21,386 nucleotides of DNA from a virus: positions 1 to 21,386 of the IMG/VR virus record IMGVR_UViG_3300025872_000367; one strand, given 5' to 3'. Positions 560 through 20,498 of the stretch are shown in pieces. A program made the position numbers and the translations under genes. The stretch's first letter is position 1, and every line of letters begins with the position of its first letter. A model generated the notes under the pieces. The model worked only from the letters and a program-made list of their open reading frames with translations. It did not search any database and had not been told where the DNA came from.

Positions 560-1360
560 TTATGAATATTTGTAGAAGGTTGTGGTTGTTGCTCCACAAA
601 TTTTAATAGCCTGTTGTGCAGTACAGCCGGTATCCTTAACCATCTGTATTGCTGCCAGCGCATTCTGTTTGGCTTCGTGTTTCCAGCTATCAAGACGCAA
701 GTCGTCCATGGACAATCCAAACTCAGGTAGGTATTTGGCAAGGGTTTTGCGTGTCAGTTTAAATGCTTTTATTTCACGCAAGGCATTTTCACCAACAGTT
801 TTGAATGCTTTTACAAATTCAGCCACTCGCTGACGAGTAGATTCCTGTTGGGCGCTTTTAGGCATTTTTAGGCCGCGCAACCGCTCCCATTCTGGAGTGT
901 ACCTAATCAACGTGTTGGTGCCAACACCGTATTTTTTAGATAGAGTTCGAAGGGGTAAGCCGCCATACCGCTCATCAAGAATAGTAAAAATGTATTTTCT
1001 TGTGCCGTTTTTGATAGCCTCTGAAATTTTGGCCGCGCTTTCAGGACTATGAGGCTTGTAAATTTTTGGACCACCAAGTGTCTCAAAGTGACAATTATAG
1101 AGATACGCCTTATCTGTTTCAAAGGCAGCAAACCACTCGGCTTCCTTTGCTTCAATGTAAATGGACTCGGCAGAATCAACAACACGAAACTCAAATGCTT
1201 CTTCACCATGCTTATTGAATGAAGCTTGAAGCCTAGGATTTCCGTGTATACCTCTACGCAACTCAGAAAAATGCCCGCGCCTTCGCATGCTAGGATTGTT
1301 CGTCCTGCCTATATAGAATTTTCCAGAAATTTTATTTTCGATAACGTAGATGAATTCCAT
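560..1360 (-). CDS. GIY-YIG homing endonuclease with NUMOD3-like and helix-turn-helix segments
   Basis: This 266-residue protein begins with a GIY-YIG nuclease domain (about 1-85). The first motif is degenerate (FIYVI, without the Gly), while Y16-I17-G18 is intact. Arginines 26-28 with H30 match the catalytic Arg region, and E73 is the likely metal-binding Glu. A NUMOD3-like DNA-binding segment follows (HSPESAAKISEAIKN, about 104-118), then two or three helix-turn-helix-like stretches ending at the C terminus. It is probably a free-standing site-specific DNA endonuclease that spreads itself between phages. The start overlaps the tail gene stop by one base (TAATG). The stop TAA merges into the AAGGAG site of the next gene, so the insertion keeps the operon readable. 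The DNA is visibly more AT-rich than the surrounding fibre genes, suggesting recent acquisition. Confidence 0.9.
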   Translation of the reverse strand: MEFIYVIENKISGKFYIGRTNNPSMRRRGHFSELRRGIHGNPRLQASFNKHGEEAFEFRVVDSAESIYIEAKEAEWFAAFETDKAYLYNCHFETLGGPKIYKPHSPESAAKISEAIKNGTRKYIFTILDERYGGLPLRTLSKKYGVGTNTLIRYTPEWERLRGLKMPKSAQQESTRQRVAEFVKAFKTVGENALREIKAFKLTRKTLAKYLPEFGLSMDDLRLDSWKHEAKQNALAAIQMVKDTGCTAQQAIKICGATTTTFYKYS

Positions 1361-9815: not shown

Positions 9816-9844
9816 TTGATTTCCATCTTGACATATGCTATAAC
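9816..9844 (+). promoter_or_regulatory. Rightward sigma-70-type promoter, divergent from the leftward one
   Basis: TTGATT (9816-9821), a 17-bp spacer and TATAAC (9839-9844) lie about 75 bp from the leftward promoter. The spacer contains TTGACATATG, which resembles the nearby operator boxes. The first plus-strand gene downstream begins at 10259, so the transcript would have a leader of about 400 bases. Confidence 0.5.
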
Positions 9845-9894: not shown

Positions 9895-10090
9895 GGTGAG
9901 AAGCCCCTGCGCTCCAAAAGCTTCCTCACCGCACCCCGCGCCCAACTTTCCAATGAAATCAAATACTTAGCTGCGCCAAAACCACGAGTGAGTGAGTGAG
10001 CGTCCAATCCGGGAAAGTTTTATATATTATTATATCTCTTACTTCCCTTATATAAAAGATAGGCGCTCACCATTCTCACCTTCTCACTGG
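9895..10090. repeat. Intergenic element, copy A: GTGAG/CTCAC inverted repeats around an AT-rich core
   Basis: The left part is GGTGAG-AAGC (9895-9904) facing GCTT-C-CTCACC (9920-9930), then CCGCACCCCGCGCCC and AATGAAATCA. A tandem GAGT repeat ending GTGAGCG follows (9986-10002), then AATCCGGGAAAG, an AT-rich core (about 10017-10062, mostly A/T), and finally CGCTCACC-ATTCTCACC-TTCTCAC (10064-10087). The same order of parts occurs at 11434-11609. Together they resemble a replication origin with an unwinding region or a large regulatory switch. No gene is supported here. Confidence 0.6.
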
Positions 10091-10122
10091 AGGGGCTTTC
10101 GCCTTTAATATCAACAACTTAA

Positions 10123-10166
10123 GCGGTGAGAAGCGAGTGAAGCTTTACAAATGGAACCCTCACCGC
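10123..10166. repeat. Inverted repeat GCGGTGAG / CTCACCGC
   Basis: Perfect 8-bp arms at 10123-10130 and 10159-10166. Inside the left arm, AAGC-GAGTGAA-GCTT forms a second small stem. The GGTGAGAAGC ... GCTT ... CTCACC order is the same as at 9895-9930. The repeat lies just before the 63-residue plus-strand gene. Confidence 0.55.
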
Positions 10167-10208
10167 GCCGGGGGCGGCGGGCTTTTCAGATTTGCCACCA
10201 AAATGCTA

Positions 10209-10237
10209 TTGACGTGCGGCGAGCTTTTGGGTAGGGT
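10209..10237 (+). promoter_or_regulatory. Possible promoter for the 63-residue gene
   Basis: TTGACG, a 17-bp spacer and TAGGGT lie about 20 bases before the start codon at 10259. The -35 differs from consensus at one base; the -10 keeps only T1, A2 and T6. Confidence 0.35.
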
Positions 10238-10258
10238 GTGCGGAGAAGGAGATATGAG

Positions 10259-10450
10259 ATGGTTGATTGGGTAGATTTCCTTAAGGAGAGTGACGAGGAT
10301 ATTGAACGGTATTTTGCGTCATCCTTGGGTACGCTGTACGGCGACAAATTGGCTATGAGGCTGCAAATGGCTAAGCTTATTATCCAGAAGCTGGCTGCCC
10401 GAGTTGGGGAATTAGAGGCAAAAGTGGAGGAGGTACAATGGGGAACTTGA
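10259..10450 (+). CDS. Small acidic helical protein with coiled-coil end, unknown function
   Basis: This is a 63-residue protein starting MVDWVDFLKESDEDIERYF. The ATG at 10259 has a strong AAGGAG 7 bases upstream; a GTG seven codons earlier would read through that site and is rejected. The C-terminal half (KLIIQKLAARVGELEAKVEEV) has heptad spacing and should form a coiled coil, so it is probably oligomeric. The gene stands alone between the divergent control region and an opposing gene. Its position next to promoters hints at a regulatory role, but no DNA-binding motif is visible. Confidence 0.65.
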   Translation: MVDWVDFLKESDEDIERYFASSLGTLYGDKLAMRLQMAKLIIQKLAARVGELEAKVEEVQWGT

Positions 10451-10618
10451 TGGGTAGGGGAATTGTGTCAAAAATGAGGCAAGTCTAAAAATACGCGCGA
10501 TTTTGGTAGGGGCATACCTGACACAGACCCTACGCCCCCTGATTTTGCCTCCCCCGCCACCCCTACCCCCCGCGTCTGGCGCTAGGCAGCTAGGAAAATC
10601 TTCCTATCGCAGGGCAGG

Positions 10619-10648
10619 AAAAAACCCCTAGGCGTTTCCACCTAGGGG
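10619..10648 (-). terminator. Strong Rho-independent terminator
   Basis: A perfect 8-bp stem, CCCCTAGG (10625-10632) and CCTAGGGG (10641-10648), has an 8-nt loop. On the minus strand it is followed directly by six Ts (10624-10619). It ends the 147-residue minus-strand gene. A second hairpin, TAGGAA-AATC-TTCCTA (10591-10606), lies just beyond. Confidence 0.85.
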
Positions 10649-10664
10649 CTTGGCTCCTAATTAA

Positions 10665-11108
10665 TTAGCCTGCTTTCTGCATCTTGTTCCCGCGCTTCAT
10701 GTTGCGCGTGATAGTCACGCCTACCGGGCCTTGTTCGTTTACTTGGCTCTTAGGTGGCATCTGGATTGTCTCAGATACTGGCGGCATTTGGATAGGCGCA
10801 GGCTTCAAGAGACGAGCTACTGCATTGCGCAGCGTATTGTCTTGGATATCGGCAAGCTTGCCCTTCCCTGCCCTAATATGCTCCACCCACGCAGTGATCG
10901 CCACTTGCATCTCCTTAGCAACGTGCGGTTCCTCCTTCTGCTTAGAAGCGCGGGGCTCCCAAAGCATCAGGCTCTTGCCATCCTTAGACAAGCCACAACC
11001 CGCTTCAGCCTGCTCAGGCATCCCAAGCGCTTCAAACACTTCCGCCATCAGCAATTTACGAAACTGTTTACCGCTCTCAGCAGTGTGAGTATGGATTTTA
11101 ATAGACAT
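10665..11108 (-). CDS. Isolated minus-strand gene of unknown function, possible regulator
   Basis: This is a 147-residue protein starting MSIKIHTHTAESGKQFRKLL. The ATG at 11108 has AAGGGA at 9 bases; a longer frame runs upstream into the promoter. Residues 1-95 look alpha-helical with a basic KQKEEPHVAKEMQVAITAW segment. The C-terminal third is proline-rich with a short repeat (PIQMPP ... TIQMPP) and ends in a basic cluster (RNMKRGNKMQKAG) that could contact nucleic acid. It is a single-gene unit, opposite to its neighbours, with its own promoter (11209-11181), a palindrome on the -35 and a strong terminator. That layout is typical of autoregulated phage control genes, but no helix-turn-helix is recognised and the role is inference. 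Confidence 0.7.
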   Translation of the reverse strand: MSIKIHTHTAESGKQFRKLLMAEVFEALGMPEQAEAGCGLSKDGKSLMLWEPRASKQKEEPHVAKEMQVAITAWVEHIRAGKGKLADIQDNTLRNAVARLLKPAPIQMPPVSETIQMPPKSQVNEQGPVGVTITRNMKRGNKMQKAG

Positions 11109-11180
11109 GGTGCTTATCCCTTGGTTTGCACCCCCGGTAGGGCCGGAACCCGCCTTAGCGCTTATCGCCTTGGCCCCTCT

Positions 11181-11209
11181 TAAATATCCCACGGCCTTGG
11201 GGCTGTCAA
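11181..11209 (-). promoter_or_regulatory. Promoter of the isolated gene, with a palindrome over the -35
   Basis: On the minus strand, TTGACA (11209-11204), a 17-bp spacer and TATTTA (11186-11181). The -35 sits inside GGGGCT-GTCA-AGCCCC (11199-11214), a 6-bp-arm palindrome that could be an operator. The -10 is weak. Confidence 0.5.
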
Positions 11210-11237
11210 GCCCCCCTAACCCCTTGAAATCATTGGC

Positions 11238-11255
11238 TGTTACAATTTGTTACAA
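11238..11255. repeat. Direct repeats of TGTTACAA, one helical turn apart
   Basis: TGTTACAA occurs at 11238-11245 and 11248-11255, exactly 10 bp apart, about 30 bp upstream of the -35 of the isolated gene. The phasing suits cooperative binding of an activator or repressor. TTGAAATCATTG lies just beside it at 11224-11235. Confidence 0.4.
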
Positions 11256-11279
11256 ATCTTTTTGGGATCATGCCCTAGG

Positions 11280-11428
11280 GCGCCCACACGCCCCTGCCCA
11301 CCCCTGCCCGCACGCACGCACGCGCCCACCCACACCTAGCCGCACGCGCGCCCACGCGCACGCCTAACAGAACAGAACAGAACGCGCACGCGTGAACAGA
11401 ACAGAACGTATCGCACGCGCACGCCTAG
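11280..11428. repeat. C-rich low-complexity tract with CACGC and AACAG repeats
   Basis: The first half is nearly free of T on the plus strand and built of CCCAC, CACGC and CGCGC units, with alternating purine-pyrimidine runs that favour Z-DNA. From about 11366 there are tandem AACAG units (about three and a half copies), then a second AACAG block near 11395. GCGCACGCCTA occurs twice. No gene is supported. The tract lies beside AT-rich element B. Confidence 0.6.
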
Positions 11429-11433
11429 ACTAG

Positions 11434-11609
11434 GTGAGGGAAGGTGAGGGTGCCGCACCCCTAAGTCATTGAAATCATTGAGGTGAGAGAGGTGAGCGTC
11501 AAATCAGGAAACTTCTACTATTATATATCTTCTTCTTCTAAAAACTAAAAGAATGTCCCTCACCCTCCTCACTCACTCACCCGCGCCCGTAAGTCATTGA
11601 TATCATTAG
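11434..11609. repeat. Intergenic element, copy B, related to 9895-10090
   Basis: Parts appear in the same order as in copy A: GGTGAG repeats, CCGCACCCC, TAAGTCATTGAAATCATTG (11462-11480), GTGAGCG (about 11492), AAATCAGGAAA, an AT/TC-rich core (about 11510-11555), CCCTCACCCTCCTCACTCACTCACC (11557-11581 region), CCGCGCCC and TAAGTCATTGATATCATTAG (11590-11609). The cores differ in sequence but keep the AT bias. This is an ancient or fast-diverging duplication. Confidence 0.6.
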
Positions 11610-11837
11610 ATAGTTGCGCGCAGGGACTAAATAGATTGTCTCTTGTAAAGTATTTAGGTGGAAGTCTAAAGCTTCAATGAAAGGCTATTTTAAAACAATC
11701 TAGTTAGGAATACAAGCTACAACTATTATATACACAATCCCCGCTTTCCACTTCGCAATCATTGCGGCTCGGCAAATTCACAAACCACACGAGGATCGCC
11801 CCGCAAGCCGTTGAAATTGCTGCCGAAAATTTTTCGC
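11610..11837. other. AT-rich intergenic stretch without a supported gene
   Basis: The bases from 11620 to about 11740 are AT-rich (TTTAAAAC, ATTATATACAC) with no tandem repeat, and no credible start with a ribosome site. An open frame from 11762 to 11986 begins with TTG, lacks a ribosome site and runs across the promoter at 11838, so it is not called. Confidence 0.4.
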
Positions 11838-11866
11838 TTGACATCCTCGGCGAACCCGGCTATGGT
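11838..11866 (+). promoter_or_regulatory. Promoter for the rightward early operon
   Basis: TTGACA (11838-11843), a 17-bp spacer and TATGGT (11861-11866). It faces the operon that begins at 12147 and would give a leader of about 270 bases. Confidence 0.6.
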
Positions 11867-11872
11867 TCCTGC

Positions 11873-12146
11873 CGTCGCCCCGATCCGGCCAGATCGAGTG
11901 GTGAATATAAGATTATCTTTGCGGTGGCCCATCGTCTAGAACGCTCTGGGGCAAAGCGTGGTTATATAGGTGTTGACAGCACCTAGACCAGCCGTCGAGA
12001 CATCTTGGCAACAACCCAATAACAGAGCTAATTTAGCCAATCAGATAGGGAAGAACCTGTAGTCTATGACTGCGGGCCTATTCCCTGTTACCTAGAGCAG
12101 CCGTGCAATAGTGCCTGACTGTTCTAGTTAGCAGGAGTGCTGACCT
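11873..12146 (+). other. Long, apparently structured 5' leader of the rightward operon
   Basis: Several hairpins are visible: CGATC/GATCG around 11881-11896; ACGCT (11941) with AGCGT (11955); AGGTG (11968) with CACCT (11980) closing a 7-nt loop. The last two are enclosed by GTCT (11934) and AGAC (11985), a possible three-way junction. ACCTAGACCAGCCGT (11981-11995) is repeated with one change at 12090-12104. CTGACT-GTTCT-AGTTAG forms a further hairpin close to the AGGAG of the first gene. It could be a regulatory RNA leader; no known riboswitch is recognised. Confidence 0.4.
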
Positions 12147-12575
12147 ATGACTGTCCTATCCCGTATCAAGGCTGGCCAGCCCATCGCCGCCCAAGAACTA
12201 TTCGACTTCATCACCAGCAAGGTCCTCGAACAGGGCTGTGCCTCTGTCATCGAATACTATGCCCCCGATGGATATAACACTTACGAGTGCGTCTATCGAG
12301 GCGTAGGCGGAACCAAGTGTGCCGTTGGCCATGTCATTCCCGGCGCTTGGTATTCCGAATCCCTAGAAGGCGCTGACGTACAAGACCTCCTAGAGAAAGA
12401 AGAACGTCTCAAGCCGTCCTTAGCTACCCACTCAGATATCCTTAAATATCTTCAGAGCGCTCACGACGACGCCTACCTAGCAAAACATCAGGGCGTAACC
12501 TTCCAAGATGAGTTCATTCGTCTAGCAATCAGAACAGCCGAAATCTGCAACCTTAACCATGCCTTCGAGGTATAA
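12147..12575 (+). CDS. Conserved phage protein with a KCAVGHVIP motif, unknown function
   Basis: This is a 142-residue protein. The central part, CVYRG-VGGTKCAVGHVIP then WYSESLEGADVQDLL, matches a group of uncharacterised phage proteins I know with the pattern C-YRg-G-KCA-VG--IP---Y---mEG. The N-terminal 40 residues (LFDFITSKVLEQGCASV) are helical. Three Cys (two in the motif) and His might bind metal, but that is a guess. The ATG has AGGAG 9 bases upstream. It is first in the rightward operon, followed after 3 bases by a small gene that commonly accompanies this type. Confidence 0.75.
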   Translation: MTVLSRIKAGQPIAAQELFDFITSKVLEQGCASVIEYYAPDGYNTYECVYRGVGGTKCAVGHVIPGAWYSESLEGADVQDLLEKEERLKPSLATHSDILKYLQSAHDDAYLAKHQGVTFQDEFIRLAIRTAEICNLNHAFEV

Positions 12576-12797: not shown

Positions 12798-13025
12798 ATG
12801 GAACCCATAGCCTTCAAAGACATCGACGGCGACCTCCTCCACCTAAACTGGATCAAGCCTGTGCCCTACAGAGAGACATCCAAATTTACGAATACCTTGT
12901 CGGTGGAGATCGAAATGGTCACAGTAAGCGCAGAGCCTTGCATCTACTTTAACGCCGAACAGCTACGCGACCTAGCCAAGAAGCTAGTCGAAGCTGCTGA
13001 CTTCCTAGACAAACAAGGAGCCTAA
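12798..13025 (+). CDS. 75-residue protein, copy 1 of an intragenomic duplicate
   Basis: This is MEPIAFKDIDGDLLHLNWIK..., probably a small alpha/beta protein: a beta-rich first 50 residues, then a helix (EQLRDLAKKLVEAADFLDKQ). It is almost identical to the gene at 20271-20498: 71 of 75 residues match (differences at T27I, E53D and two near the C terminus). The DNA differs at only about 13 of 228 positions, several of them silent. It lies 3 bases after the previous gene and has a GGGAG site. No domain is recognised. Retention of two copies suggests a dosage or regulatory role. Confidence 0.8.
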   Translation: MEPIAFKDIDGDLLHLNWIKPVPYRETSKFTNTLSVEIEMVTVSAEPCIYFNAEQLRDLAKKLVEAADFLDKQGA

Positions 13026-20270: not shown

Positions 20271-20498
20271 ATGGAACCCATAGCCTTCAAAGACATCGAC
20301 GGCGACCTCCTCCACCTAAACTGGATCAAGCCAGTGCCCTATAGAGAGATATCCAAATTTACGAATACCTTGTCGGTGGAGATCGAGATGGTCACAGTAA
20401 GCGCAGAGCCTTGCATCTACTTCAACGCCGACCAACTACGCGACCTAGCCAAGAAGCTAGTCGAAGCTGCCGACTTCCTCGACGCCCAAGGAGTATGA
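20271..20498 (+). CDS. 75-residue protein, copy 2 of an intragenomic duplicate
   Basis: This is a near copy of the protein at 12798-13025 (71 of 75 residues, about 95% DNA identity), with I27, D53 and a different C terminus (DAQGV). Identity begins at the ATG and ends at the stop region; the flanking sequences differ, apart from a short GGGAGC before the start. It lies one base after the Sak4-like gene and one ATGA step before the next gene, so it has been placed neatly into the operon. The function is unknown. Confidence 0.8.
   Translation: MEPIAFKDIDGDLLHLNWIKPVPYREISKFTNTLSVEIEMVTVSAEPCIYFNADQLRDLAKKLVEAADFLDAQGV

Follow-up and report, generated by a model that had tools for sequence, protein, structure and literature searches.

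Known origins and the paired elements of an uncultured phage

What origins of theta replication have in common is that the initiator binds next to AT-rich DNA that is intrinsically unstable, and other factors assist some of them, as IHF does at the origins of pSC101 and R6K and transcription does at lambda ori (PMC5043065). In lambda, the initiator sites are repeated and the adjoining AT-rich region, about 40 bp long, is strand-asymmetric, the helicase is the host DnaB, and it is transcription through the origin that assists (PMC5043065). The lytic Bacillus phage SPP1 has two origins, one initiator (G38P) and recombination genes of its own, and its second origin is thought to stall forks, leading to recombination-dependent replication (PMC3485210). 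We describe here two related elements, A and B, found in 21,386 bases of DNA from an uncultured virus (IMG/VR record IMGVR_UViG_3300025872_000367, positions 1 to 21,386; this whole stretch is referred to as the window). Judging by their sequence, they are on balance probably a pair of iteron-type replication origins.

None of the described systems matches this locus in full. It resembles pSC101 and R6K in having iterons, an AT-rich region suited to opening and a putative IHF helper (PMC5043065), but here the core separates two arrays of opposite orientation, and the search for DnaA boxes gave no good one. The likeness to SPP1, drawn from the published description of that phage rather than from sequence, lies in the paired arrays and the recombination genes. 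The SPP1 origins oriL and oriR are 12 kb apart, oriL lies inside the initiator gene, and the phage encodes an initiator, a loader and a helicase (PMC3485210), whereas the elements described here are intergenic in the window and 1.5-5 kb apart, and no such proteins were recognised. The single origin of lambda lies within gene O and has its AT-rich region to one side of the iterons; here the element is duplicated, the core lies between two opposed arrays, and no homologue of O or P was recognised. The satellite phage P4 also relies on two separated regions, ori1 and crr, which contain copies of an octamer (TGTTCACC) and are both needed for replication. Its alpha protein is primase, helicase and binding protein in one, and no such gene was recognised here.

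A conserved paired element confined to one phage group

A and B are a real, conserved element that is specific to this phage group. Their local alignment scored 45.0, while 1000 dinucleotide shuffles gave a mean of 12.7 (standard deviation 2.4) and a maximum of 23. A previous inspection of the letters alone (the sequence-only reading) had proposed two copies built of the same ordered parts, and indeed every part that it named was found in its place and the similarity far exceeded that of shuffled sequence. The two elements have in common a 35-mer (GTGAGCGTC-AATC-GGAAA, at 9996 and 11492) with 71% identity, and GTGAG/CTCAC inverted repeats were reported by an independent repeat analysis as well. 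At 50-72%, the overall identity of A and B is low; divergence has changed the sequence of the cores, as had been noticed, but their architecture is kept across all copies.

A search profile built from A, B and one relative (L003) revealed two equally oriented copies in almost all related contigs that extend across the region, and the contigs examined as exceptions proved to be loci that end before the second site. The pair is present in about 20 related uncultured phage contigs. Five long contigs of 41-63 kb (G001, G003, G004, G009 and G011) hold exactly two copies each and no further copy, and dense GGTGAG/CTCACC clusters are confined in them to A and B; G004 (63,108 bases) carries a 123-base end repeat and was hence taken as complete. 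Scanning 2.9 million viral contigs with a degenerate pattern of the array yielded 35 stretches, all from this phage group, and a narrower exact pattern yielded no matches. The degenerate pattern also gave six matches in GTDB genomes, four with weak profile scores and two with none; none of the six came with protein similarity to the window, and we took them as chance occurrences. Among annotated phages and plasmids there was no DNA match either to the element region or to the A element of another clade. Caulobacter phage Kuura has similar genes without the element, and in the cultured Pelagibacter phage HTVC023P, which has related genes, the element was not found in the 50 of 61 kb searched.

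Each copy consists, on its left side, of outer GGTGAG boxes, a TAAGTCATTGATATCATTGG-like site and two to three GTGAG repeats, the last of which reads GTGAGCG. The core is followed by CGCTCACC, at least two more CTCAC repeats and more GGTGAG boxes, in many copies with a second TTGAT site before these boxes. The core is 51-71 bp long (mean 55 bp) and on average 67% AT; in it TATAT stands before a pyrimidine run. The core is strand-asymmetric, as has been described for lambda ori (PMC5043065): in 36 of the 43 copies its longest run of pyrimidines is longer than its longest run of purines, and therefore each element is directional, A and B pointing the same way.

Element A occupies 9895-10165 on the plus strand and comprises outer GGTGAG/CTCACC pairs, IHF-like sites, opposed GTGAG arrays and the core, with orthologues in about 20 contigs. 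It is longer than the sequence-only reading had it, extending to an extra GGTGAG...CTCACC pair at 10125-10164. Its left array (9987-10002, plus strand) has three overlapping GTGAG, the last being GTGAGCG, its core lies at 10003-10063 (plus strand), and its right, inverted array (10064-10087, minus strand) has three CTCAC. Predicted IHF sites that fit the consensus flank this structure at 9957-9969 (AATCAAATACTTA) and 10109-10121 (TATCAACAACTTA), both on the plus strand. Element B occupies 11433-11611 (plus strand), with a left array of GGTGAG and GGTGAGCG at 11482-11498 (plus strand), a core at 11499-11556 (plus strand) and a right, inverted array of four CTCAC at 11557-11581 (minus strand). 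Here the predicted IHF sites are on the minus strand, one with a single mismatch to the consensus at 11462-11480 (TAAGTCATTGAAATCATTG on the plus strand) and one that fits it at 11590-11602 (TAAGTCATTGATA on the plus strand). Directly left of B, at 11366-11411, there are AACAG tandem repeats within CACGC-rich low-complexity DNA.

When duplex stability was computed over 50-bp stretches, the two cores were the least and second least stable in the window (10013-10062 in A and 11508-11557 in B), and the cores hold the same two ranks in G003. In G004 and G009 the core of A ranked first; the cores ranked first and third in G001 and second and fourth in G011. Across 38 copies there are 35 matches to the IHF consensus WATCAANNNNTTR, compared to 0.31 expected from shuffles, a ratio that overstates the evidence because the copies are related. 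These sites lie on both sides of the core and can face either way; that the consensus is retained while its orientation changes argues for a binding site. Complementarity between the arms is about equal, position by position, within a copy and between copies, the spacers are not complementary, and covariation was found neither in the arms nor in the outer hairpin of A. The GTGAG/CTCAC arms thus look like protein-binding arrays, and the reading as RNA stems was rejected for this lack of covariation.

Probable paired origins and the alternatives

The sequence-only reading had left the choice between a pair of replication origins and a large regulatory element. We favour the origins because of the two copies, the exclusive clusters, the unstable cores, the IHF consensus, the arms that resemble binding arrays, the strand-asymmetric core and the location at a gene boundary; the conservation of the element points the same way. 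Two hallmarks of iteron origins are present, namely a clustered short repeat that is rare elsewhere and an adjacent AT-rich region of low stability, the latter weaker for B in G004 and G009. The boundary applies to A, which separates leftward from rightward genes; the divergent control region that had been suggested is not a constant feature of B, as in one clade B sits inside a run of rightward genes.

We infer a mechanism in which a sequence-specific initiator would bind the opposed GTGAG arrays and the flanking sites would be occupied by IHF or a host bending protein like it. The resulting strain would open the AT-rich core, and a helicase would then be loaded there, presumably that of the host, as no phage helicase was recognised. 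Putative promoters that read into each element may assist the opening, as at lambda ori. Two related arrays and recombination genes would also fit an SPP1-like division of labour, where one origin would start theta replication and the other copy would serve as a second origin or as a fork block, giving rise to recombination-dependent concatemers. In its broadest form the proposal is that a widespread uncultured clade uses a duplicated, dyad-symmetric iteron origin, that an initiator of an undescribed family recruits the host helicase, that the copies split the theta start and the recombination-dependent switch between them, and that an exchangeable cassette lies between the copies; this we put forward tentatively, as possible rather than probable.

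The genes near A and B include those of an exonuclease, a Sak4-like recombinase, a DUF669-like protein and PolA, and the right arm of the group encodes such a polymerase, exonuclease, recombinase and DUF669-like protein; an SSB-like protein is also encoded. Along with the two arrays, the exonuclease, Sak4 and SSB-like genes would match an SPP1-type system if a single initiator binds both arrays, and a Sak4 protein and its SSB partner are required for replication in a staphylococcal phage (PMC5499656). The helicase that the phage itself encodes in SPP1-type two-origin systems was not found: DnaB_C and Helicase_C had no match in 11 and 9 contigs, respectively (several of them incomplete), while the positive controls matched. 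In all five long contigs the PolA-type polymerase is split into two frames, an exonuclease part and a polymerase part (L040 15265-18228 in contig G004, with equivalents in G001, G003, G009 and G011), and between them lies a conserved gene of 108 amino acids without a recognised family. Two small widespread proteins were modelled, one as an alpha-beta-beta fold (mean pLDDT 77) and one as a low-confidence helical structure (mean pLDDT 53), and a scan confirmed no relatives of a right-arm protein of 145 amino acids.

Several observations weigh against the assignment as origins. The core of B is outside the six least stable stretches in G004 and G009, and the exact IHF consensus is absent from 9 of the 38 copies and from all of G004; moreover, orthologous copies are not independent of each other. 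DnaA boxes with fewer than two mismatches were not found. No initiator was detected among the proteins scanned with Pfam, PHROGs and NCBIfam, which leaves room for one of an unknown family; the 108-amino-acid protein is universal and by eye contains a helix-turn-helix-like stretch, but its predicted model is poor. Promoter-like sequences adjoin the elements. The detrended GC skew has its maximum between 8.3 kb left and 0.9 kb right of A and its minimum 18-23 kb to the right, near a convergent gene boundary, so that it is a maximum and not a minimum that lies near A. The skew also follows transcription: as a check on the sequence-only reading it tracked gene direction, with a polarity opposite to the usual G-rich leading strand, and it is compatible with an origin as well as with none.

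The main rival to an origin pair is that A and B are large operators or enhancers, where a phage regulator would occupy the GTGAG arrays, IHF would bend the DNA, and the flanking promoters of the leftward ThyX and ribonucleotide reductase genes, the cassette genes and the rightward RII and replication genes would be switched. We consider this possible, though doubtful. In the window, each element has promoter-like sequences no more than about 260 bp away: TTGATT-17-TATAAC reads rightward into A (9816-9844, plus strand; similar in relatives at this place), TTGTAT-17-TAAAAT reads leftward into B (11687-11715, minus strand), and TTGACA-17-TATGGT precedes the rightward RII/exonuclease/recombinase cluster (11838-11866, plus strand). 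In one clade GGTGAG repeats stand directly upstream of a TTGACA box right of B, and the copies of A are at a divergent gene boundary. However, only the third of these sequences was listed by the consensus scan as well as read from the sequence, the first two being read from the sequence and absent from the list, and the number of scan matches was no higher than chance. GTGAG clusters occur nowhere else in the five long contigs, which leaves no dispersed regulon, and an operator has no need of a very unstable core of 51-71 bp.

A and B might instead function at the RNA level, within early transcript leaders, and alter transcription elongation in the manner of the put sites of phage HK022. Promoter-like sequences read into each element, and both elements do fold better as RNA than shuffled sequences (z -3.1 for A and -2.1 for B). 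This fold stability stems from the repeats themselves, neither the arms nor the outer hairpin of A shows the covariation of a conserved stem, and A and B are on opposite strands with respect to the promoter that reads into each; of all the explanations we find this the least credible. Inverted protein-binding boxes with IHF sites are known at P1 parS and lambda cosB, and A and B might accordingly be partition or packaging sites, bound by a ParB-like protein or a terminase. That, too, is very unlikely, since every genome has two copies, separated by 1.5-5 kb, which ill suits a unique packaging start, in G004 the terminase gene is distant from the elements, the searches made turned up no partition genes, and the unstable core would be unexplained. 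An improbable but slightly better alternative is that the elements serve mainly as boundaries of an exchangeable cassette, whose genes would be swapped by recombination between the copies or between co-infecting phages. A and B persist while the kinds of genes between them vary, as do the number and direction of these genes, identity between A and B is slightly higher within a genome, the A core of the window is B-like inside A-type flanks, and L059 has an inversion with a breakpoint near the element. Yet for homologous recombination an identity of 50-72% is low, there is no integrase or recombinase gene with the elements, and the AT-rich core, the arrays and the IHF sites would be unexplained. 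Exchange may be a by-product of another function.

The cassette, a candidate leader RNA and the phage

A and B are separated by 1.45-5.0 kb in the different genomes. The single isolated gene that had been placed between them in the window turned out to be two predicted genes, one of 70 amino acids on the plus strand (10238-10450), with no family match, and one of 147 amino acids on the minus strand (10665-11108), present in five of the genomes compared. Between these convergent genes, at 10622-10650, a stem (CCCCTAGG...CCTAGGGG) precedes an A run (T on the other strand); it is probably a terminator, seen in the sequence and absent from the scan list. One set of genomes has the conserved leftward 147-amino-acid gene in the cassette and another, the one in which B sits within a rightward run, has several rightward genes. 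A gene starting with MRVLVACEYSGTVRDAF is found in the cassette of one clade (L017, L019, L022-L024 and L031) and in the right arm of G004 (32923-33492), so it has moved. The A core of the window is closer to the single copies of the close relatives L058-L060 and L066, which lie on the exonuclease-gene side, than to other A copies, and the IHF-like site is inverted as in these four, while the flanks are A-type; this suggests exchange between A and B copies. Identity between A and B averaged 0.59 within genomes, compared to 0.54 (standard deviation 0.06) between genomes. Compared with L060, L059 carries the element together with its left flank in inverted orientation (1-820). The breakpoint lies near the outer GTGAG boxes, and this is either a real inversion or an assembly join.

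Just right of B, the noncoding leader of the rightward gene cluster (11866-12150, plus strand) is a candidate for a new structured leader RNA. It is 98% identical in L003 and 67-86% identical in five other relatives, and its RNA fold has a z-score of -4.5. Nine compensatory pairs were found in 7 sequences, a number equalled by none of 500 shuffles, and among them is a 7-pair hairpin that is changed in half of the sequences. The 3′ hairpin adjoins the presumed ribosome-binding site. The leader had no Rfam match and no DNA match among annotated phages and plasmids, and its conserved stretch has matches in this phage group only.

The leftward genes of the window encode tail proteins, ribonucleotide reductase and ThyX, and the rightward ones RIIA, RIIB, the exonuclease, the Sak4-like recombinase and the DUF669-like protein; a search of Rfam gave nothing above chance, and a tRNA search found none. 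The start of the protein encoded at 560-1360 (minus strand), adjoining the tail genes, resembles by eye a GIY-YIG endonuclease (YVIENKISGKFYIGRTNNP). Near-identical copies of a 75-amino-acid gene (MEPIAFKDIDGDL...) lie at 12798-13025 and 20271-20498, one on each side of the RII genes. The phage is probably tailed and lytic, and since the nearest kin of its reductase among annotated phages are mostly roseophage proteins, there are hints of a Rhodobacterales host.

If A and B are origins, replication origins would be defined for environmental phages without close cultured relatives, and a short sequence signature would pinpoint such origins directly. One would then ask what protein recognises GTGAG and loads the host helicase, given that neither an initiator gene nor a helicase gene is recognisable in these phages. 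A cassette bounded by the elements would show gene exchange focused at origins, and the pair would join SPP1 as a second example with which to ask what makes some phages retain two related origins.
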